A stretch of 64,000 nucleotides of DNA. Origin: Parundibacterium terreum. GTDB lineage: Bacteria; Pseudomonadota; Gammaproteobacteria; Burkholderiales; Burkholderiaceae_D. How positions within the stretch are numbered: the first letter of the stretch is position 1; each line of letters starts with the position of its first letter. This document shows positions 9,812 to 47,737 of the stretch, one piece after another. The stretch spans positions 124,001 to 188,000 of the forward strand of contig NZ_BMED01000003.1 in NCBI RefSeq assembly GCF_014636315.1. The letters run 5' to 3'. Under the pieces are notes generated by a model. It saw nothing but the letters and a program-made list of their open reading frames with translations, made no database searches and had not been told where the DNA came from. Position numbers and translations under genes: made by a program.

Positions 9812-9918
9812 CGATAGACCCACGAATACAAGTACACCACGAATATAAGCGCAGGCATGCACCCGCGGCAGGCCTGCCGGAATAATTGATAACTTTGAAC
9901 AAAGACAGGTAATTAGAT

Positions 9919-11724
9919 ATGTCCATGCGTACCCACTATTGCGGCCTCACCACTGAGGCTCTTCTCGGTCAAACCGTCAGCCTGTGCGGCTGGGTGCACC
10001 GTCGCCGTGACCACGGTGGCGTGATTTTCATCGACTTGCGCGACCGTGAAGGCCTGGTACAGGTTGTTTGCGATCCTGATCGTGCGGACGTATTTGCCGC
10101 CGCAGAATCCGTCCGTAGCGAATTCTGCCTGCGCATTACCGGCCTGGTGCGTAACCGCCCGGAAGGTACCAGCAATGCCAACCTGAACTCAGGCAAGATC
10201 GAAGTTCTGTGCCAGCAACTGGAAGTGCTGAACCCATCCGTGACGCCACCGTTCCAATTGGATGATGACAACCTGTCCGAAACCACACGCCTGACACACC
10301 GCGTGCTGGATCTGCGTCGTCCGCAAATGCAAAACAATCTGCGCCTGCGTTACAAGGTAACGATGGAAGTGCGCAAGTTCCTGGATGCCAATGGCTTCAT
10401 CGACATCGAAACACCGATGCTGACCAAATCCACGCCAGAAGGCGCGCGTGATTACCTGGTGCCTTCCCGTGTGAATGCCGGTGAATTCTTCGCGTTGCCG
10501 CAATCGCCGCAGTTGTTCAAGCAATTGCTGATGGTTGCCAACTTCGACCGCTATTACCAGATCACCAAATGCTTCCGCGATGAAGATCTGCGCGCTGACC
10601 GCCAGCCTGAATTCACGCAGATCGATTGCGAAACCTCGTTCATGAATGAGCAGGAAATCCGCGACATGTTCGAAGGCATGATACGCCTGGTGTTCAAGAA
10701 CACGCTGGATATCGAGCTGCCTAATCCTTTCCCTGTGATGAACTTCGACACGGCAATGGGCCTGTATGGTTCCGACAAGCCGGACATGCGCGTCAAACTG
10801 CAATTCACCGACCTGACCGATGTCATGAAGGATGTGGACTTCAAGGTCTTCTCCGGCGCCGCGAACATGCCTAACGGCCGCGTGGTTGGTCTGCGCGTAC
10901 CGGGCGGCGGCAATATGCCACGTTCCGAAATCGACGCATACACGCAGTTTGTTGCGATCTACGGCGCCAAAGGCCTGGCTTACATCAAGGTCAATGAAAA
11001 AGCATTGGGCCGCGACGGCCTGCAATCGCCTATCGTGAAAAACCTGCACGATGCAGCCTTGACACAGATCCTGGAGCAAACCGGTGCGCAAGACGGCGAC
11101 CTGATTTTCTTCGGTGCGGATAAAGCCAAGGTTGTCAACGATGCGATCGGTGCATTGCGCGTGAAAATCGGCCACAGCGAATTCGGCAAGAAAAACGGCC
11201 TGTTCGATGACGTATGGAAGCCATTGTGGGTCATCGATTTCCCTATGTTTGAATACGATGAAGCGAATGAGCGCTGGTCTGCAACCCACCACCCATTCAC
11301 GGCCCCGAAAGACGGCCATGAAGACCTGATGGAAACAGATCCGGGCAAGTGCGTGGCCAAGGCTTACGACATGGTATTGAACGGCTGGGAACTGGGCGGC
11401 GGTTCTGTCCGTATCCACCGTGCAGACGTACAGAGCAAGGTATTCCGCGCATTGAAGATCGATGCCGAAGAAGCGCAACTGAAATTCGGCTTCCTGCTGG
11501 ACGCACTGCAATACGGCGCGCCTCCGCACGGCGGCCTGGCATTCGGCTTGGATCGTATCGTGACGATGATGACAGGTTCGGAATCCATCCGTGACGTGAT
11601 CGCCTTCCCGAAAACCCAGCGCGCGCAAGATTTGCTGACGCATGCTCCATCCCCAGTGGATGAGAAGCAACTGAAGGAATTGCATATCCGTTTGCGTAAT
11701 CCGGAGCCGGTCGTCAAGTCCTGA
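9919..11724 (+). CDS. aspS: Aspartate--tRNA(Asp/Asn) ligase
   Basis: 601 aa, the full bacterial length. Order: N-terminal OB anticodon-binding fold ([20 protein letters not shown]), class II catalytic core with motif 2 ([18 protein letters not shown]), the bacterial GAD insertion in the middle, and motif 3 ([14 protein letters not shown]). It charges tRNA-Asp; in many betaproteobacteria AspRS is non-discriminating and also makes Asp-tRNA-Asn for GatCAB, which this sequence alone does not settle. A textbook terminator follows. Confidence 0.98.
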
Positions 11725-27644: not shown

Positions 27645-27768
27645 GATATCTTTTGCGATAAGTCGCACCGTAAAGTGCCACAGTAAGTGAGATTTATGTC
27701 GCAGAAGTTGAGGCTTAGGTTTTAGGCTGTAAGTACTCTGAAAGTGCTAGAAAACAAGGTCGCTGCAA

Positions 27769-27800
27769 GGAAAAAATCCGTATTGTTGCGGATTTTTTCC
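27769..27800 (+). terminator. Strong bidirectional terminator
   Basis: Perfect 12-bp stem GGAAAAAATCCG / CGGATTTTTTCC around an 8-nt loop, A-rich on one side and T-rich on the other; it can work on both strands and closes the enoyl-CoA hydratase unit. Confidence 0.85.
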
Positions 27801-28008
27801 TTTGAAGACATTGATGTTCTTTTGCTCGCTGAACTGATTCGGTCAGTTTGAGCCCATTCTCCATTGCCTGGCAAAGATTGTCATTCGGTCGTACGACCCC
27901 ACTAATTCCAATTTCTTAAGCTCCAGGTGCTTTGTTTCAGGCTGCATCGCTGCTTCCAGTTTTTACCTATCCGCGTCTTTAACCAGCCCGAAAGCTGGAA
28001 ACCTTATT

Positions 28009-28384: not shown

Positions 28385-28415
28385 TATTTTCCACAATTTT
28401 ACTTTGTGAAAAATA
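28385..28415. promoter_or_regulatory. Inverted repeat ahead of cphZ-like gene, possible RpiR operator
   Basis: Arms TATTTTCCACAA (28385-28396) and TTGTGAAAAATA (28404-28415), 11 of 12 matched, 7-bp spacer. The flanking AAATTATTTTC (28381-28391) recurs at 31255-31265 upstream of the rpiR gene. TTTTC...GAAAA arms are common among RpiR-family sites. Confidence 0.4.
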
Positions 28416-28464: not shown

Positions 28465-29592
28465 ATGCAAATCCTCAAACATCCTATTACGGGAGCCAAT
28501 GGCCCTGTAACAGCAGAGTTAGTCAGCCTGCACTTTGGTCCGCTTGACCAGGGTAAGAAAGTCTATATCCAGGCCGCGCTGCATGCGGATGAAGTACCTG
28601 GCATGCTGGTTGCCCAATTCTTGCGTGCAGAGCTTGCCTCTCTGGAGGCGAATGGGCGACTGCACGGTGAGATTGTATTGGTGCCTGCGGCCAATCCCCT
28701 CGGTCTGGCACAGGCGGTGCAGGGGACCCCCTTTGGGCGGTTTGACTTGACCACTGGAATTAATTTCAATCGTGGCTTCCGCCATGTAGGGCCAGAGATT
28801 ACACCTTTGCTCGTGCAAAGATTGGGGCAGGATGAAGCAGCAAATATCTTGATTGTTCGTGAGCAAGCATGCCAGGCCGTGGCACGCTGGAATCCTATGA
28901 CCGACTCTGATTCACTGAAGAAAATTCTGCTTGGGCTAGCCATCGACGCCGATATTGTTCTCGATCTGCATTGTGACAATGAAGCGATGGTTCATCTATA
29001 CACTGGCACTGCACTTGCCAACGCGTTGGAGCCGCTGCCCGCCATTCTCGGCGCACACGCGGTGCTGGTAACTTCCGAAGCGGGGCAGGAGCCGTTTGAT
29101 GAGGCATGCAGCCGTCTCTGGTGGGAAATAGCCGCAACATACAGAGGACTGTTCCCTATCCCATCTGCCTGCCTTGCGGCCACCGTGGAGCTGCGTGGTG
29201 AAATGGATGTGGATTACGATACCGCACGAGCCGATGCCGCGGGCATTATCCAGTTTCTGGCATTAAAAGGCATGGTGGGGCTTCAGCAAGCGGGACCGGT
29301 CGTTTTACCGCCGGCAATGTGCCAGCCGACCCCTTTGGAAGGTGTGGAGCCCTTACTTGCGCCACAGGCGGGAATCCTGGTTTACCAAAGAGCCCTCGGA
29401 GAAGACGTGCGTGCGGGAGACGTGATCGCCGACGTCATCGATCCAGTCAGCGGCTCGGTTATCCAGGTGCGTGCTTCTGTTGCGGGCCGTTTTTTTGCCC
29501 GGTCCGCACACCGTCACGTATTGAGGGGCATGAACATCGGAAAGATATCAGGAAAGACGGCTTATCGTACCGGCAATCTGATGAGCCTTTAA
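28465..29592 (+). CDS. cphZ: CphZ-like zinc deacylase: probable cyanophycin dipeptide (beta-Asp-Arg) hydrolase
   Basis: 375 aa, succinylglutamate desuccinylase/aspartoacylase (AstE/AspA, M14-like) family. Zinc ligands fit His40 and Glu43 (HADE) and His169 (LHCDN); Glu242 (ATVELRGE) is the likely catalytic base. A C-terminal beta/biotinyl-like domain (about 290-375, GILVYQRALGEDVRAGD) is present. AstE acts on N2-succinyl-glutamate; beta-Asp-Arg is an aminosuccinyl-arginine, so the fold suits it, and I recall that AotO/CphZ proteins of this family are beta-Asp-Arg hydrolases. The cyanophycinase 6 kb downstream supports this. A different N-acyl amino acid as substrate is the main alternative. 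Followed 24 bp later by a permease gene. Confidence 0.75.
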   Translation: MQILKHPITGANGPVTAELVSLHFGPLDQGKKVYIQAALHADEVPGMLVAQFLRAELASLEANGRLHGEIVLVPAANPLGLAQAVQGTPFGRFDLTTGINFNRGFRHVGPEITPLLVQRLGQDEAANILIVREQACQAVARWNPMTDSDSLKKILLGLAIDADIVLDLHCDNEAMVHLYTGTALANALEPLPAILGAHAVLVTSEAGQEPFDEACSRLWWEIAATYRGLFPIPSACLAATVELRGEMDVDYDTARADAAGIIQFLALKGMVGLQQAGPVVLPPAMCQPTPLEGVEPLLAPQAGILVYQRALGEDVRAGDVIADVIDPVSGSVIQVRASVAGRFFARSAHRHVLRGMNIGKISGKTAYRTGNLMSL

Positions 29593-29616
29593 ATAGAACA
29601 AAACCGGGTCTCCAGC

Positions 29617-31005
29617 ATGAAAAAATTACGGCTTCCGAATACCTTCGTCCTGCTTTTTTCCATTCTCGCCTGCATTGCTGCCGCGACATGGTTAATTCCC
29701 GGTGGAAAGTACGACATGCACATGGTCAATGGGAAGTCACTGATTGATCCTGCATCCTTCCACTACGTCAGCAGCAATCCGCAAGGTGCAGTCGCTCTGA
29801 TGATGGCTCCGGTAAAGGGTTTTGTTGAGGCTGCGCTCATTATCGTTTTCGTACTGGTGACAGGGGGCGCTTTCGCGGTAGTGCAAAAAACAGAATCACT
29901 GGACATGTTGATCAAATCCATTGCACGGGCGCATACCCATTCACGATTTGTCCGAGCTGCCACTATTCCCTTGTTTGTGACATTGTTTTCCCTTGGCGGG
30001 GCGACCTTTGGAATGAGTGAAGAAGCCATCGTGTTCAGTATGCTGTTTGTCCCACTGGCACTGGCGCTGGGTTACGACTCTATCGTTGGTGTCTCACTTC
30101 CTTTTATTGGGTCGCAGATAGGTTTTGCTGCAGCCTTCCTGAATCCATTCAATGTAGGCATTGCGCAGGGTATCGCGGGAATACCGATTTTTTCTGGTAT
30201 AGGGTATCGCCTGTTTGTCTGGACTGTCATAACATTTACGACCATCGCATTTCTCATGTGGTACGCCGCCAAAATACGGAAAAATCCACAGAAGAGCCCA
30301 ACCTATGGGCTGGATCTTGAGAAGCGCCAAAATGCAGCAATCAATTTCGATGATTTCAATGGAATGAACGGTACGCACAGCGTCGTACTGTGGATATTCC
30401 TGGCCAGCCTCGCGTGCATGGTATTTGGTGTCATCCAATATAACTGGTTCATTGAGGAAATTGCCGCACTTTTCCTCGTGATGGCCATTCTGATCGCTGT
30501 CGTAAGCCGTATGGACGCGGATCAGTTCGTTTCAGCCTTCATGCTCGGAGCAAAAGACCTGGTCCCTACTGCGCTGGTCATTGCACTGGCAAGGGGCACG
30601 CTGATATTAGCCCGGGAAGCTCACGTCATCGACACAATACTGCACGCGCTGATGCCCCTGGTGCAGTCGGCGCACCCTATTTTTTCAGCACAAAAGATGT
30701 ACCTGATTCAATCAGTGATCAATTTTTTCGTACACTCCGGTAGTGGGCAAGCCGCCCTGACCATGCCCGTCATGGCACCCCTCAGTGATTTGGTGGGCGT
30801 ATCACGCCAGACGGCCATTCTTGCATTTCAGCTTGGTGAGCTTTCAACACCGATCATTCCTACGTCAGGGGTAACCGTAGGCGTGCTGGCACTAGCGCGC
30901 ATACCTTGGATTACATGGGCCAGGTGGATGTTGCCGCTGCAGTTGATCTACCTTTTGCTGGCATTGCTGCTTCTTGTTCCGCCCTACTTTATCAACTGGC
31001 AGTGA
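29617..31005 (+). CDS. YfcC/ArcD-type (DcuC superfamily) permease, probable beta-Asp-Arg or basic amino acid carrier
   Basis: 462 aa with about 11-12 membrane segments. N-terminal PNTFVLLFSILACIAAATWLIPGG and the conserved FVEAALIIVFVLVTGGAFAVVQKT, GGATFGMSEEAIVF and FFVHSGSGQAALTMPVMAPL are YfcC/PF03606 marks; this family contains arginine/ornithine (ArcD-like) and peptide-like carriers. Only 24 bp behind the cphZ-like gene, hence one operon, so inner-membrane import of the dipeptide from cyanophycin is the best guess. No substrate has been shown for this protein. Confidence 0.85.
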   Translation: MKKLRLPNTFVLLFSILACIAAATWLIPGGKYDMHMVNGKSLIDPASFHYVSSNPQGAVALMMAPVKGFVEAALIIVFVLVTGGAFAVVQKTESLDMLIKSIARAHTHSRFVRAATIPLFVTLFSLGGATFGMSEEAIVFSMLFVPLALALGYDSIVGVSLPFIGSQIGFAAAFLNPFNVGIAQGIAGIPIFSGIGYRLFVWTVITFTTIAFLMWYAAKIRKNPQKSPTYGLDLEKRQNAAINFDDFNGMNGTHSVVLWIFLASLACMVFGVIQYNWFIEEIAALFLVMAILIAVVSRMDADQFVSAFMLGAKDLVPTALVIALARGTLILAREAHVIDTILHALMPLVQSAHPIFSAQKMYLIQSVINFFVHSGSGQAALTMPVMAPLSDLVGVSRQTAILAFQLGELSTPIIPTSGVTVGVLALARIPWITWARWMLPLQLIYLLLALLLLVPPYFINWQ

Positions 31006-31381
31006 AGGCCGGAATTCCTGTGACAATATTAGACCGGCCCTCTGTTGGATGAGTCGCATCCGAGTGCTAAATCATAGAGTATGGTTCGGCGTCCTTGATT
31101 GCGGGGGGGGACGGCGCGTTGTTCTACTTTTGTTTTTCGGATATTTCAATCTTGCCTGGCTTGATTTGCTCGGAGCGTCCGCCGGTGAAGGAAATAGGAC
31201 GTGCTGCTGGTCGTCTTGATGTGGTAAAAAGTTTACATGAAATTTATTTTTGCAAAATTATTTTCAAATATCGTTGATATTCGTATTCAACACATATAAA
31301 GTAAAGATCAGCATAGTACGTATCGATTCGCCTTCTCAATAGGCGAAGCTTGTTTATTCTTTTAATTTATCGCGATTGACA
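31006..31381. other. Control region ahead of the rpiR gene
   Basis: 376 bp without a convincing gene. It has a G9 run near 31105 and becomes strongly AT-rich from about 31225, with AAATTATTTTC at 31255-31265 matching the cphZ upstream site. Confidence 0.5.
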
Positions 31382-32341
31382 ATGGCCAAGAACACGACGC
31401 AGAAAAACTCTCTCAATGAAGCGGCAAGCCCCGAGCTGGCGTTCGCCAAGACACGCCTCGGAAAAGCCCTGTTGGAGATGCTGTCTGAGGGGTCTAATTC
31501 TTATCAGAGCATTGCCAACTTCCTGTTGCGTAACCACGTCAGGGTCACCGCGATGGGGATTGAGGAACTGGCGGCCAGCTGCGAGGTATCTACGGCGACG
31601 ATCAGCCGCTTTGCGAGGGATGTGGGCTTTAATAATTACGCCGCGATGCGCAACGAGGTTGCCGAAACTTTGCAAAATCTGTTTCAGCCTGTGGAAAAGT
31701 TGCGTAACACGATAGAGCGCAGGAATCATGCAACCACGCCCTCCACTGCCAGCATGGAGTACGCAATCGCCAACACTGATTCTGCAAATCAGGGCTTATC
31801 CGTGGAAACGCTGGATGGCGTAGTGGACGTGATTACCAAAGCACGTACTGTGTATGTCATGGGTTTTGGCCTCAGTGCGCATCTGGCGGCTATATTATCG
31901 CTGCACTTGCAGCCGTTTTGTCAGCACGTAGTTGAAGTAGTGGGATATGGTGGAACTGAGGTGGCTGCCGGCCATCTGGCACAGATATCCGACAAGGATG
32001 TGCTGATCGTCATCTCATTCCCGCGATATGCGCTGGACGTAATCAAGCTGACGCACTTTGCCCGCGACCATGCAACCTCCATCGTTTCCATCACCGATTC
32101 TACCGCGTCGCCACTAGCGAACCTGGGAGATTACTTGTTGCTGGCACCAAGCACGCATCCGGTTTTACCTAGCAGTTCCAGTGCTGCAATCGCTGTCATT
32201 GAAGCACTGGTCAGTAAGCTGATGGTTTCCAACAAGAAGAATGTCGAGAAAGCGCAAAAGCTGACCGAGGCCCTGTCCTCGTATTTGCACGGGGCCGAAG
32301 TTCCAACAGCAGGGCAAAAGTCCAAGCGCAAGAATGAATAA
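31382..32341 (+). CDS. MurR/RpiR family transcriptional regulator
   Basis: 319 aa from ATG 31382. N-terminal HTH_6 domain (YQSIANFLLRNHVRVTAMGI, then ELAASCEVSTATISRFARDVGF) at about 40-110, and a SIS sugar-isomerase-type ligand domain at about 150-285 (VYVMGFGLSAHLAAILSLHL, DVLIVISFPRYALDVI). RpiR regulators usually sense phosphosugars but some sense other metabolites. Placed between permease and TonB receptor genes, it is the natural regulator of the cyanophycin-type locus; possible sites are the A/T-rich repeats noted upstream. Confidence 0.9.
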   Translation: MAKNTTQKNSLNEAASPELAFAKTRLGKALLEMLSEGSNSYQSIANFLLRNHVRVTAMGIEELAASCEVSTATISRFARDVGFNNYAAMRNEVAETLQNLFQPVEKLRNTIERRNHATTPSTASMEYAIANTDSANQGLSVETLDGVVDVITKARTVYVMGFGLSAHLAAILSLHLQPFCQHVVEVVGYGGTEVAAGHLAQISDKDVLIVISFPRYALDVIKLTHFARDHATSIVSITDSTASPLANLGDYLLLAPSTHPVLPSSSSAAIAVIEALVSKLMVSNKKNVEKAQKLTEALSSYLHGAEVPTAGQKSKRKNE

Positions 32342-32533
32342 ACCTTAGGTCTTCTCTTCCCCTCCCAGTGAAAAAGGGTTGCTATAAGCAGCCGGGGCGA
32401 ACTCGTCTTAAAAAAAATGTTTCACCTTAAAAGTAGTTGCATTTCGTAGTTTTTTCTTTGCTTTGGTTTATGAATTCTGCTTGTAGTTCAGATTGTCCTT
32501 CAAATTTAAAAATGAAAAAAATGGGAGTAAGCA

Positions 32534-35245
32534 ATGAAGCACGGACGTAAAGAGCATCAACTAAGATATAAGGCCTTGTCGTGGGCAGTCCGGAGCGCTA
32601 TTGGCGCCGGAGTGGGACTGGTAGCGATCAATTCCAGCGCGTTGGCGCAGACTAGCGATCAAAATCCGCCGGTACAAAAAGTGGAAATAACCGGCTCATC
32701 AATCAAACGTATTGATGCTGAAACGGCGTTGCCGGTGCAAATCATCCGACGTGAAGACATCGATAAAAGTGGCGTAACCACGGCAGCCGAACTTCTGTCC
32801 AAGATTAGCGCCAGTGCCGCCGGCCTCACCGACGGCGCCAGCTTTAGCGATATTTCGGGACAGCGGGGATTCAACGGCGCCAATCTACGCGGTATAGGCG
32901 TTTCCTCCACTCTGGTGTTGCTGAACGGACGTCGGTTGGCCAATTTTGCTTCGCCCGGTGGTAATGCGGGTGTTGATTTGAATTCCATTCCTGCGGCAGC
33001 GATTTCGCGCGTAGAAGTATTGAAAGACGGCGCCTCGGCTATCTACGGTACCGACGCCATCGGCGGCGTGATCAACTTCATCACCCGCAATGATTACCAG
33101 GGAGCAGAGATTTCTGCCTACTACGGGGATACTCAGCATGGTGGCGCGGCCAAGGATATACTCACGGTATCCGGCGGTTTCGGTAGTCTTGCAAGCGACA
33201 AATATAATGTCATGGCAGTACTGGACTACCAGAACACCAAGAGCCTGCGTTCCACCCAGCGTGACTGGATAGGGTCCGCTTACCAGCCGGATATCAATCT
33301 GGATGTGGGCAGCTCCAATACCTATCCTGCCAATGTACGTCTTACCAAGCCGAGCGGAAGTGCCACAGGTCCAAGAATGAATCCCAGTGCGCCCAATTGC
33401 AATCCCCCGGCAACCGTATATGCACCCGGCAGTTTTGTCGGCAGCAAGGCCTGCCTGTACGACTACATGCACGATACTGAAATATTCCCAGAGTCCCAGC
33501 GCCTGTCTCTATTAACGCGCGGCCAGTTAGCGGTTAGTGCAGACCATACGCTTTTTGCAGAAGCCTTGCATAGCGATACGAAGACCACTTATCGCATCAG
33601 CCCGTTGACAATTACCGACTTAAACTATCCGCTGGGAGGCCAGTATTATCCTAATGCGCTGATTCCGACAGGGCAGACACCACTACGCGTCAGCATGCGC
33701 CTGACGGAAGCCGGTCCGCGGACTAATGAGGTTGAATCCAAGGCGGACCGGCTTCTACTAGGTGCCAAAGGAACCTCCGGTGACTGGGACTACGACACTG
33801 CGATTAACCACAGCGTCAATACTGTGGATGATAACTATATCAATGGCTACGTGAAAACATCGGTTTTCAACTCAGCCTTCCTGAGTGGAAAAATAAATCC
33901 ATTCGGTCCTTCTGGTGGCGACGGGCTCGCTTTGCTCAATGCCGCCAAGATCAGCGACGCGGCACGCCATTCCCGCGGCACGACCGACTCGGCAGATATC
34001 AAGGCTAGCCGGGACCTTTTCGCCTTGGCAGGTGGCAATGCTGCAGTCGCTTTAGGTGCAGAATACCGGCGGGAAAAAATGACATTCACTCCTTCCGCGC
34101 TGCTCGCTGCAGGCGAGATAAGGGGAGATGGAACGGCCTCTGCTTTCAGTGGTGATCGTACTGTGAAGGCTGTATATGCGGAATTCAATTTTCCCATATT
34201 GAAAAATCTGGAAACCCAGCTAGCCGTTCGCCACGATAGTTACGATGACGTTGGCAGTACCACCAACCCTAAAGTGGGCCTGCGCTGGAATCCTGTGAAA
34301 GAAGTCGTGGTGCGTGCTTCCTATGGAACCGGCTTCCGGGCGCCGTCCCTGTCGGACCTATATGGCCCGCCGCGTCTTGGACAAACCAACGGTATCTATA
34401 ACGATGCGCTGGGATGTATTAAGACTGCGGCGATCGACAATACCAATAATCCAGACTATTGCGGACTACAGCCTGATAAATTGCAGGGAGGTACAGCGGG
34501 TCTGAAGCCGGAAAAATCCAAGCAATTCTCTGCCGGTATGGTATTTGAGCCTAATCGCAACCTGACTGCATCGCTCGACTACTGGCGCATAGAAAAAACC
34601 GACGTCATTGTAGCGCCCGAAGGTTCGTATTTTGATGACCCTGCACGTAATGCAGCATATATCGTCAGGGATGTTCCCGACCCAGCTTTACCCGGTATTC
34701 CAGGGCGCATCTTGTCGATTGATTCCCGTTTGCGTAACATCGGTTCATTGAAAACGTCCGGTCTTGATCTGAGCCTGGACTGGCGCTTACCTGCCAGCAG
34801 CTGGGGGAAATTCGGGATTACACTTAATGGCACCTATGTAATCGACTATAAAACCCAAGAAAACAACGGTGGTTCTGAGATCAATGGCGTGGGAGTGTTT
34901 GCCAATGACCAGGTCGTGCAGCGCTGGCGCCATACCCTGACGTTTGACTATGAGCGTGGCCCTTGGGGAGCAACATTGCAACAGACTTTCTATCAAGGAT
35001 ACAACGATCAGGCACTTTTGCCGGATGGCTCGATACATCGTGTCAGTTCTTATTCACTATGGGATTTAAGCAGCAGTTTTAAATGGTCTGAAGCTTTGCG
35101 TTTGCGCGTCGGTATTAAAAATCTGTTCGATACCAACCCGCCACGGTCAAACCAGGTCTATAGCTTTCTGGCGGGCTATGATCCTAACTACACTGATCCG
35201 CGCGGCCGCTATTTCTATACATCGCTGAACTACGCGTTTAAGTAA
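32534..35245 (+). CDS. TonB-dependent outer membrane receptor
   Basis: 903 aa. Signal peptide (to about AlaLeuAlaGln, residue 39), TonB-box region, then a plug domain with VEITGSSIKRID, LRGIGVSSTLVLLNGRR and VEVLKDGASAIYGTDAIGGVINFITR, and a 22-strand barrel ending in FYTSLNYAFK with the expected C-terminal aromatic residue. The GSSIKRID type is common among receptors for complex organic polymers and peptides rather than siderophores. Its place next to the secreted cyanophycinase suggests uptake of cyanophycin fragments. A terminator follows at 35255. Confidence 0.93.
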   Translation: MKHGRKEHQLRYKALSWAVRSAIGAGVGLVAINSSALAQTSDQNPPVQKVEITGSSIKRIDAETALPVQIIRREDIDKSGVTTAAELLSKISASAAGLTDGASFSDISGQRGFNGANLRGIGVSSTLVLLNGRRLANFASPGGNAGVDLNSIPAAAISRVEVLKDGASAIYGTDAIGGVINFITRNDYQGAEISAYYGDTQHGGAAKDILTVSGGFGSLASDKYNVMAVLDYQNTKSLRSTQRDWIGSAYQPDINLDVGSSNTYPANVRLTKPSGSATGPRMNPSAPNCNPPATVYAPGSFVGSKACLYDYMHDTEIFPESQRLSLLTRGQLAVSADHTLFAEALHSDTKTTYRISPLTITDLNYPLGGQYYPNALIPTGQTPLRVSMRLTEAGPRTNEVESKADRLLLGAKGTSGDWDYDTAINHSVNTVDDNYINGYVKTSVFNSAFLSGKINPFGPSGGDGLALLNAAKISDAARHSRGTTDSADIKASRDLFALAGGNAAVALGAEYRREKMTFTPSALLAAGEIRGDGTASAFSGDRTVKAVYAEFNFPILKNLETQLAVRHDSYDDVGSTTNPKVGLRWNPVKEVVVRASYGTGFRAPSLSDLYGPPRLGQTNGIYNDALGCIKTAAIDNTNNPDYCGLQPDKLQGGTAGLKPEKSKQFSAGMVFEPNRNLTASLDYWRIEKTDVIVAPEGSYFDDPARNAAYIVRDVPDPALPGIPGRILSIDSRLRNIGSLKTSGLDLSLDWRLPASSWGKFGITLNGTYVIDYKTQENNGGSEINGVGVFANDQVVQRWRHTLTFDYERGPWGATLQQTFYQGYNDQALLPDGSIHRVSSYSLWDLSSSFKWSEALRLRVGIKNLFDTNPPRSNQVYSFLAGYDPNYTDPRGRYFYTSLNYAFK

Positions 35246-35254
35246 TCAAGGCCG

Positions 35255-35300
35255 ACGGCGCGGCATCCTTACAATATTGAAGAGATGTCCGCGCCGTTTT
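35255..35300 (+). terminator. Intrinsic terminator between receptor and cyanophycinase genes
   Basis: Stem ACGGCGCGG.CAT / ATG.CCGCGCCGT with one mismatch and an 18-nt loop, then four T. Partial read-through could set a lower level for the cyanophycinase. Confidence 0.65.
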
Positions 35301-35336
35301 CTGACCAGATTGGTAATCACATGTGGGGACGTGCGA

Positions 35337-36590
35337 ATGAAGAGCAGGAGCAGCAAAATTTGGATTGGAATCGCTATGGCGACAGCTTTTTTCGGTGCCC
35401 AAGCGGCGGAGATAGCTGCAGCGACCAAAGACGCAGAAGCAAAGACCAAAGGTTCGCTGGTGATTATTGGTGGAGCGCTGCGCATAGACAACGTCCCGGT
35501 TTGGCAACGTATCGTTAATTTGGCTGGAGGGAAGGGGGCGCGGATTGCTGTTTTTCCCACTGCGGCAGCCAATCCCGAACGTTCGGGGCAGGCAACTATT
35601 GATGTGCTGAATGGCTATGGAGCCCAGGCTTTTCTGGTCCCCCTGTCGGCGAAATTCCCGAGTACTGATTTTCGCTCGGTAGCCCGTGATACCGTCTTGG
35701 CCGCTACTGTCCGCAGTGCCGGAGGAGCTTACTTCGTTGGTGGCGACCAGGGCCGAATTACGCAGGCTTTGCTGGAGCCCAATGGAGGCAGAACGCCTTT
35801 GCTGCAGGCGGTGTGGGATATGTACCGCAGCGGCGGAGTAGTCGCGGGCTCCAGCGCGGGGGCGGCAATCATGAGCGAGACCATGTTTTATGATGCCAAA
35901 GAGGTGTTGCCGACGCTACAGCAGGGAATCACCGATGGCAAGGAGATTGCTCCCGGGCTGGGTTTTATTGGATCCGAGGTTTTTGTGGATCAGCATTTGA
36001 TCGTCCGAGGACGCTTTGCTCGCATGATTCCGGCCATGCTCAAGAAAAATTATAAGCTGGGGTTGGGGGTCGATGAAAATACAGCAATGGTCATCAACCC
36101 GCAGCATGAGTTAGAGGTATTGGGGTATAAGGGAGTGATCGTTGTTGACCTTGCCGAAGCGAAGACTGATCCTAAGCAGCAATACTTTAACATTCAGAAC
36201 GCTAAATTGAGCTATCTTGACCGCGGAGATAAATTCAATTTTCATACTAGGCACCTTACGGTGGCGGCAGACAAGGAAAAGGGGAAAGTAGATCCCGACA
36301 GACCTTACTACGAGGACGTTAAGTATTATGCCGATGTCCTGGGCAACACTGCTGTAGTCGATTTGATGCAAAAGTTAGTAGACAGCAGGCAACAACAAGT
36401 GACAGGTCTGGCATTCGGGTCGCCGCAAAGTGCAATGCCTGAACTCGGATTTGAGTTTTTGTTTAAGCGAACACCAGAGAGCCTTGGATATTTTTCCAGC
36501 GCTTCCGGGGCCGAAGCCTATACCGTTATGAATATACGACTGGATATTCGACCGGTCGAAATGAATTTTCCCCTATATCGTGGTAAATAA
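35337..36590 (+). CDS. cphE: Cyanophycinase with signal peptide (peptidase family S51)
   Basis: 417 aa from ATG 35337, chosen because it begins a good signal peptide (MKSRSSKIWIGIAMATAFFGAQA); the open frame starts at 35277. S51 core: GSLVIIGGALR, ARIAVFPTAAANP, YFVGGDQGRITQAL, the nucleophile motif VVAGSSAGAAIMSE (Ser173) and DQHLIVRGRFARM. A C-terminal extension (about 285-417) is longer than in cyanobacterial CphB. Cyanophycinase cuts the Asp/Arg polymer to beta-Asp-Arg dipeptides; the signal sequence points to the periplasmic or extracellular CphE type, which degrades polymer from other cells. Confidence 0.9.
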   Translation: MKSRSSKIWIGIAMATAFFGAQAAEIAAATKDAEAKTKGSLVIIGGALRIDNVPVWQRIVNLAGGKGARIAVFPTAAANPERSGQATIDVLNGYGAQAFLVPLSAKFPSTDFRSVARDTVLAATVRSAGGAYFVGGDQGRITQALLEPNGGRTPLLQAVWDMYRSGGVVAGSSAGAAIMSETMFYDAKEVLPTLQQGITDGKEIAPGLGFIGSEVFVDQHLIVRGRFARMIPAMLKKNYKLGLGVDENTAMVINPQHELEVLGYKGVIVVDLAEAKTDPKQQYFNIQNAKLSYLDRGDKFNFHTRHLTVAADKEKGKVDPDRPYYEDVKYYADVLGNTAVVDLMQKLVDSRQQQVTGLAFGSPQSAMPELGFEFLFKRTPESLGYFSSASGAEAYTVMNIRLDIRPVEMNFPLYRGK

Positions 36591-47322: not shown

Positions 47323-47737
47323 GGCCGGTGCGTGCTTTTGTCTATTTATACATTTTCGGCGTCAAAGCAAAAATCTTTAATTAGGGCAACTGCCTTGCCC
47401 TACTCAGGGGCTCGCATGGACGCATTTCTCTCGTGCGCTCACGCAGATGCCCGACATTGAGCGCAATCTATATTGCTTGTGTAGCAACCAAGGTGAATGT
47501 AATATTGACAATAAATGTCATTATTTCATTTGCAATAAAATCCTGGCACTAAATATTTTCAGGTGGGATTCAGGTGTGATGCCGCCTCTTTCGCATCCGC
47601 TGTTCGGTAAGGTAATTCATAGGTAAGTAGCATGATCTTCATAAGGCGGTGCTCTCTTGATTTTGTTCTTGAGTTTGTGCCGGTAGAAAAACAAACAAAA
47701 CCGTAGCAGCCTTTGCTATGATTTTTACAGTAAATCC
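47323..47737. other. 415-bp divergent intergenic region
   Basis: No gene. AT-rich in the middle, with imperfect symmetry AAATG-N9-CATTT at 47513-47531 and TGACA-ATAAA-TGTCA at 47506-47520. These could be operators for the TonB receptor gene but do not match Fur well. Confidence 0.4.

Follow-up and report, generated by a model that had tools for sequence, protein, structure and literature searches.

Cyanophycin is a nitrogen-storage polymer of cyanobacteria and many other bacteria, heterotrophs among them. Work that reportedly appeared in PNAS in 2023 describes CphZ and AotO as cyanophycin dipeptide hydrolases, and the neighbor of CphZ/AotO in Pseudomonas is said to be the aot ATP-binding cassette (ABC) transporter. 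The available part of PMC10206079 presents an extracellular cyanophycinase, CphE, the CphZ family, and scavenging loci that hold a cyanophycinase, a dipeptidase, and a transporter; the cyanophycin utilization locus of Ben Hania et al, as cited there, has IadA as its dipeptidase. According to the accessible text of PMC3400609 (2012), Citromicrobium sp. JLT1363 has a TonB receptor located near a cyanophycinase gene, and cyanophycin is given as a likely receptor substrate. The portions at hand of two further reports predict that Pseudoalteromonas tunicata secretes a cyanophycinase for scavenging (PMC2536512) and infer extracellular cyanophycin use in Thalassotalea (PMC7564069), while those of PMC12661447, PMC3951458, and PMC10687191 hold nothing further on such a locus. 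Here, we analyze a 64-kb stretch of DNA from Parundibacterium terreum (the window; positions 124001–188000 of contig C3 in a draft genome of 6.37 Mb), in which five consecutive genes likely form an RpiR-controlled locus for the uptake and breakdown of cyanophycin that is conserved in Oxalobacteraceae.

The five genes occupy consecutive plus-strand reading frames at 28465–29592, 29617–31005, 31376–32341, 32534–35245, and 35277–36590, an arrangement proposed in a first-pass annotation of the sequence and confirmed here by the reading frames and their family matches. They encode a predicted CphZ-type β-Asp-Arg dipeptide hydrolase (28465–29592), a DcuC/YfcC-like inner-membrane permease (29617–31005), an RpiR/MurR-type regulator with HTH_6 (PF01418) and SIS (PF01380) domains (31382–32341), a TonB-dependent outer-membrane receptor with Plug and TonB_dep_Rec_b-barrel domains (32534–35245), and an exported, CphE-like cyanophycinase of the Peptidase_S51 family (35337–36590). 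The regulator probably starts at ATG 31382 and not at TTG 31376 of the longest frame, and the cyanophycinase likewise probably at ATG 35337 and not at TTG 35277. The locus had been called complete, which goes too far: it contains neither TonB/ExbBD nor genes for the further metabolism of Arg and Asp.

Three samples serve for comparison. The family survey comprises 294 genomes drawn evenly from a larger group, with cut-offs of E ≤ 1e-20 for relatives of the window cyanophycinase and E ≤ 1e-60 for relatives of the window CphZ; the same-genus genomes include Undibacterium hunanense (G187, locus L101) and U. pigrum (G241, L104). Around cyanophycinase matches, 40 loci (L043–L082) were read, one of them being the window genome's own second copy. 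The named loci are the best 80 of at least 520 relatives, with titles that are all from Burkholderiales and mostly from Oxalobacteraceae, and their neighbor counts refer to genes within about 10 kb. The family-genome loci and the named loci overlap, kinship makes the counts non-independent, and on short contigs (L102, L119, L131, L139, L141, L152, L157, L161, L175, and others) the absence of a neighbor is uncertain.

The product of the first gene matches the AstE_AspA_cat domain of Pfam (55.4 bits) but resembles CphZ more than any other solved AstE/AspA member in both sequence and predicted fold. With phmmer, it aligns over residues 19–365 to the solved chains 8ein (235 bits) and 8eip (232 bits), whereas the next solved relatives reach only 90 and 86 bits. 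The structure search labels both chains as CphZ, the cyanophycin dipeptide hydrolase of Acinetobacter baylyi; 8eip contains the E251A variant together with β-Asp-Arg. The predicted model (mean predicted local distance difference test score 76) superimposes on these structures with Z scores of 32.0 (8eip) and 31.8 (root-mean-square deviation 3.3, 347–348 aligned residues), compared with 25.4 for 3fmc. The motifs H40-A-D-E43, L168-H169-C-D-N172, and E242, which the first-pass annotation had reported as intact, are all found and aligned: H40, E43, H169, and E242 are invariant among 13 sequences including the two solved chains, while among 22 aligned close relatives D171 shows no variation and N172 hardly any. 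E242 is aligned to the position at which 8ein and 8eip differ; the catalytic Glu of CphZ is E251 in the 8eip numbering, and its zinc ligands are presumably His, Glu, and His. Further, H-x-D-N (after an LDLH start) and PFDEACS are common to the window hydrolase and 8ein but not to 3fmc. The enzyme is therefore very probably CphZ-type, as had been proposed, with β-Asp-Arg as the predicted substrate. No signal peptide is seen, so CphZ is probably cytoplasmic, and there it would in all likelihood split β-Asp-Arg into Asp and Arg. Two CphZ-like proteins depart at the conserved motifs and may thus differ in specificity, having LHCDC at the position of LHCDN in locus L090, and LHCSL for LHCDN together with SFDETHS for PFDEACS in L088. 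As for other dipeptidases, IadA finds only a weak match in the window genome (22.6 bits, cut-off 331); an Asparaginase_2/IaaA-type gene does lie elsewhere in it, and CphZ consequently need not be the sole dipeptidase.

The cyanophycinase passes the cut-off of TIGR02069 (149.7 versus 126.6 bits), and its predicted fold gives Z scores of 29.2–29.4 to 7uqv, 3en0, and 7uqw, the last labeled as a cyanophycinase covalently bound to a cyanophycin dimer. Its active-site residues are kept in the alignment to 3en0, and Q158, S193, D238, Q239, H240, R244, R246, and R249 are invariant across 27 cyanophycinases; we take the active site of this family, with its numbering and motif labels, to consist of Ser132, Gln101, D-Q-H, and three Arg. 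As the first-pass annotation had claimed, this S51 enzyme carries a signal peptide, MKSRSSKIWIGIAMATAFFGAQAA, which, judged by eye, has a Sec-like hydrophobic N-terminus and an A-x-A site. Relatives were assessed by a crude hydrophobicity test: the named loci hold 93 cyanophycinase frames, a hydrophobic N-terminal stretch occurs in all 85 that could be parsed, and the other 8 have the same N-terminal look by eye. Among L043–L082, the signal-less copy of the window genome is the one exception, and the start in L077 is unclear. A lipobox-like stretch occurs in 6 of the 93, namely LQGC in L108 and L109, each time in the first of a tandem pair within a five-gene locus, and LAAC in the solo cyanophycinases of L119, L134, L137, and L140; such enzymes might sit on the surface. 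A lipobox is absent from the window's own cyanophycinase. Tandem cyanophycinases also occur at L054:8499–11028; the first of them has a lipobox-like LQGC and is perhaps an outer-membrane lipoprotein. The C-terminal part of the window enzyme (window 36264–36590, about residues 330–437) is conserved and mostly modeled with confidence, and lies outside the structural matches.

Conservation links these two enzymes across genomes. Among the 294 family genomes, 122 have the cyanophycinase, 127 CphZ, 113 both, and 158 neither (Fisher p 1.7e-53, kinship ignored), a co-occurrence by which the first-pass annotation had wished its proposal to be judged. The linkage that this annotation had suggested holds as well: of 150 listed cyanophycinase matches, 97 have a CphZ match no more than 10 kb away, and 80 have a window-like receptor within the same distance. 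All five genes are present and whole in 18 of the 40 loci L043–L082, as well as in L057, with the receptor as a fragment only. Eleven of the 13 same-genus relative loci (L043–L053) have the full set; in L090 and L092, the remaining two, RpiR finds no match, and CphZ, cyanophycinase, receptor, and YfcC are arranged in a different order. In L090 (L090:5548–15959), AstA, AraC, CphZ, an M20 peptidase, and the cyanophycinase follow one another on one strand, with receptor and YfcC on the other. With the extra genes for AstA (arginine succinyltransferase), the AraC regulator, and the M20 peptidase, this locus represents a second type within the genus. YfcC and the receptor each occur in 43 of the 80 named loci, CphZ in 46, and RpiR in 33; 28 have the full set. 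On a 96-row cyanophycinase tree, the label “all five” changes 10 times, compared with 26.8 expected by label shuffling, and the set thus appears clustered yet gained or lost several times. At the level of the phylum, relatives of the window cyanophycinase at E ≤ 1e-60 occur in 2 of 398 genomes of the phylum, which are the window genome and a same-family genome. The expectation that the five-gene set would recur elsewhere is borne out, but not in the same one-direction order: all five-gene relatives seen are divergent, with YfcC-CphZ opposite to RpiR, TonB receptor, and cyanophycinase. The CphZ-YfcC unit of the window thus appears to be turned round; a look for inverted repeats at its edges gave nothing convincing.

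Between the divergent genes of the relatives lies the palindrome TTTTTTCAC-N12-TGAAAAAA. We scored it with a matrix from 18 relatives (11 of the same genus), from which the window was excluded, as was L065 with its overlapping frame ends. The best place for this matrix in the 64-kb window is 28385–28415, 50 bp upstream of cphZ (score 25.8; TATTTTTCACAAAGTAAAATTGTGGAAAAT, read on the minus strand), and the next-best separate place is 31229–31258 on the plus strand upstream of rpiR (15.2). Next come 47344 (13.1) and 32492, directly before the receptor gene (9.4). Peak scores in six first-order resamples of the window are 3.9–10.4, and the score of the first site is reached by none of 2000 first-order resamples of its 400-bp region; the second copy is suggestive only. 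Both copies align with one stretch of the relatives' intergenic region, which suggests that the rearrangement duplicated the site. In all 28 five-gene named loci, the best site of the locus falls between the start of CphZ and that of RpiR or the TonB receptor (scores 16.2–48.4), at 47–67 bp before CphZ in 24 of them and 184–194 bp in the other 4. CphZ starts were set by alignment, as several of the longest CphZ frames begin too early. Twenty of these loci share no tested stretch with the training set; 8 do. In contrast, the best score is at most 12.2 in all 18 named CphZ loci without RpiR in the stretch, 12 of which form one receptor-bearing group, mostly Duganella, and a few of which are short contigs. 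RpiR and the site thus come and go together, which is the strongest evidence for RpiR control of the set. Another, strong match of the matrix (21.2) is found at L091:12590–12620 on contig C6 of the window genome, before a gene of 308 codons and near another TonB receptor (43% identical). The third-best separate place in the window, 47344–47373, is far from the locus and may be chance or another RpiR target.

Regarding transport, the permease matches DcuC (PF03606) at 332.9 bits and the NCBIfam YfcC model at 382.7 bits, below the curated cut-off of 500, which places it in the DcuC superfamily but outside that equivalog; no solved relative is found by sequence at E ≤ 0.01. Its gene adjoins CphZ in 43 of the 46 named loci with CphZ. 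We regard import of β-Asp-Arg as a reasonably likely function of this predicted YfcC-like permease. The receptor exceeds the cut-off of none of the 25 NCBIfam models shown, and so is assigned no substrate class, but its gene neighborhood suggests cyanophycin fragments as the probable import substrate. Each of its nine closest relatives in the family genomes (71–75% identical) has a CphZ or S51 gene next to it, although the S51 neighbor in L086 scores 55.5 bits, below the cyanophycinase cut-off, and the receptor there is split into two frames. At E < 1e-200, the matches listed include 118 receptor relatives, 84 of them no farther than 10 kb from a CphZ or cyanophycinase match in the list. One of the close relatives, the receptor of L088 (71% identical), belongs to a locus with the order CphZ, receptor, β-propeller, and Dpp-type peptide ABC transporter (L088:1276–11448), from which YfcC is absent. 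That a peptide transporter stands in place of YfcC hints that YfcC does the job of a peptide importer. The rest of the L088 contig (L181) contains no relative of the five window genes.

Taken together, we propose the following route. Soluble cyanophycin chains or fragments from lysed cells would cross the outer membrane through the TonB receptor, and the exported cyanophycinase would cut them to β-Asp-Arg. The YfcC-like permease would carry the dipeptide inward, CphZ would complete its hydrolysis in the cytoplasm, and the strain would thereby grow on the polymer. RpiR would bind the palindrome before both transcription units and switch them in response to an intracellular signal, which may be the dipeptide or a product. 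The first-pass annotation had the polymer cut outside the cell. However, a Sec signal alone leads to the periplasm, and β-Asp-Arg, at ~290 Da, should pass ordinary porins, so that a TonB receptor fits better with longer fragments that are cut in the periplasm. For this reason, we prefer a mainly periplasmic cleavage, which we hold to be about evenly balanced with its alternatives. A broader scheme of “selfish” uptake can be put forward tentatively, as somewhat short of an even chance: the receptor would deliver oligomers to the periplasm, the cyanophycinase would process them, and YfcC would import the dipeptide, all under one RpiR operator, with the genome carrying two copies of the enzyme pair, one directed outward and the other, lacking a signal peptide, dedicated to the internal store.

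The main competitor to periplasmic cleavage is an enzyme that acts beyond the outer membrane, either type II secreted or surface-anchored, with the receptor taking up short products. The window genome encodes type II secretion GspD (645 bits, cut-off 351), the lipobox-like stretches described above show that some relatives may be anchored, and CphE is described as extracellular in the available part of PMC10206079. Yet the window enzyme has no lipobox, its secretion past Sec is unreadable from sequence, and a TonB receptor should be unnecessary for a dipeptide; we therefore see cleavage beyond the outer membrane as possible, but as the lesser prospect. The direction of the permease may be questioned in a similar manner, as YfcC is annotated in NCBIfam as a putative basic amino acid antiporter, albeit with a cut-off that the window permease does not reach. 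YfcC might thus export surplus arginine, ornithine, or aspartate while the dipeptide enters via another peptide transporter. This is rather unlikely given that a signal-less CphZ requires its substrate to be brought in, that YfcC so regularly adjoins CphZ, and that a peptide ABC transporter replaces it in L088. Far less probable still is a hydrolase acting on other N-acyl amino acids in the manner of AstE/AspA enzymes, beside a cyanophycinase that would be an incidental neighbor. The Pfam family is indeed the general AstE_AspA catalytic domain, but CphZ is much nearer than any other solved member (235 versus 90 bits; Z 32.0 versus 25.4), and 113 of the 127 genomes with CphZ also have the cyanophycinase.

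The origin of the polymer has to be considered as well, since the strain itself can probably make cyanophycin: its genome encodes a cyanophycin synthetase, CphA1 (966 bits, cut-off 850), beside a CphA-like gene that remains below the same cut-off (709 bits), the two together occupying C2:52657–57553 (L083). The locus might consequently recycle the strain's own cyanophycin, leaked or from dead kin, instead of the polymer of other organisms. The 20 kb around the CphA1/CphA-like pair contain no relative of the five window genes. A second CphZ-cyanophycinase pair is encoded divergently at L062:8486–9622 (minus strand) and 9837–11006 (plus strand), corresponding to C3:673491–675978, with 54% (CphZ) and 60% (cyanophycinase) identity to the window genes. 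Its cyanophycinase begins with MSDEIKGTL without a signal peptide, and its placement in the tree is unsure; the pair is probably an intracellular version. In the simplest reading, the second pair would serve the cell's own store and the window locus polymer from outside. With a signal-less cyanophycinase and a second CphZ available for the inside, and with a receptor and a signal peptide that point outward, recycling of the strain's own polymer by the window locus is quite improbable, although feeding on dead kin would be indistinguishable.

Several observations weigh against a dedicated, RpiR-controlled cyanophycin locus. What a transporter carries is not proven by linkage, and related loci cannot count as independent cases. 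Of the 118 listed receptor relatives, 34 are away from the listed CphZ and cyanophycinase matches; of the five inspected more closely, G009, G106, and G219 do adjoin an S51 or cyanophycinase gene, but L093 and L099 have none alongside. In the genome of L088 (86% complete), CphZ and the receptor are accompanied by no cyanophycinase relative at E ≤ 1e-20, so that the receptor may act there on some other peptide or on the dipeptide. The CphZ of this locus also deviates at D171-N172 and in the PFDEACS motif. The cyanophycinase stands alone in 26 of the 80 named loci, and with 10 changes on the tree the five-gene set is not stably inherited. Regarding the operator, the rpiR-side copy is weak, its score being reached by 12 of 2000 resamples of its region, and the left half of the palindrome persists in the RpiR-less loci L125, L128, and L129.

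The flanks of the locus look unrelated, with an α/β hydrolase and an enoyl-CoA hydratase upstream, and LysR regulators and a pirin downstream. A perfect 14-bp inverted repeat at window 27767–27802, 3′ of the enoyl-CoA hydratase gene, is possibly a terminator that separates this gene from the locus.

If our reading is true, a conserved and regulated import in Massilia, Duganella, Janthinobacterium, and Undibacterium would mark these Oxalobacteraceae as cyanophycin recyclers, a substrate would be given to this part of the YfcC/DcuC superfamily, and a peptide-like polymer would join the diet of TonB receptors. In addition, the locus offers a candidate RpiR operator that is directly testable.

Literature joining a cyanophycinase with YfcC or with Massilia was not found in a search of titles and abstract starts that left subscription journals mostly uncovered, nor was a description of the receptor-YfcC-RpiR-CphZ-cyanophycinase set; such a search argues only weakly that none exists. 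Earlier publications already cover extracellular cyanophycinase, CphZ, scavenging loci, and the proximity of a TonB receptor to a cyanophycinase. The first-pass annotation had held the coupling of a TonB receptor to cyanophycin to be undescribed, which the report on Citromicrobium in the accessible text of PMC3400609 contradicts. What is added here is the YfcC/RpiR/operator part and its conservation. Compared with CphZ/AotO, represented by 8ein and 8eip, the window enzyme agrees in sequence, predicted fold, zinc ligands, catalytic Glu, and linkage to a cyanophycinase, but in contrast to Pseudomonas it is accompanied by a YfcC-like permease, a TonB receptor, and RpiR. The locus of Ben Hania et al, as far as it is outlined in PMC10206079, likewise links a cyanophycinase, dipeptidase, and transporter for scavenging; its dipeptidase is IadA where the window has CphZ, and the outer-membrane receptor is a feature of the window. 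Citromicrobium sp. JLT1363 shares the receptor-cyanophycinase neighborhood, while CphZ, YfcC, and RpiR are unnamed in the available text of PMC3400609. Finally, CphE of Pseudomonas anguilliseptica (PMC10206079) and the enzyme of P. tunicata (PMC2536512) resemble the window cyanophycinase as exported S51 enzymes that would serve scavenging, but the accessible parts of these two reports show no five-gene context.

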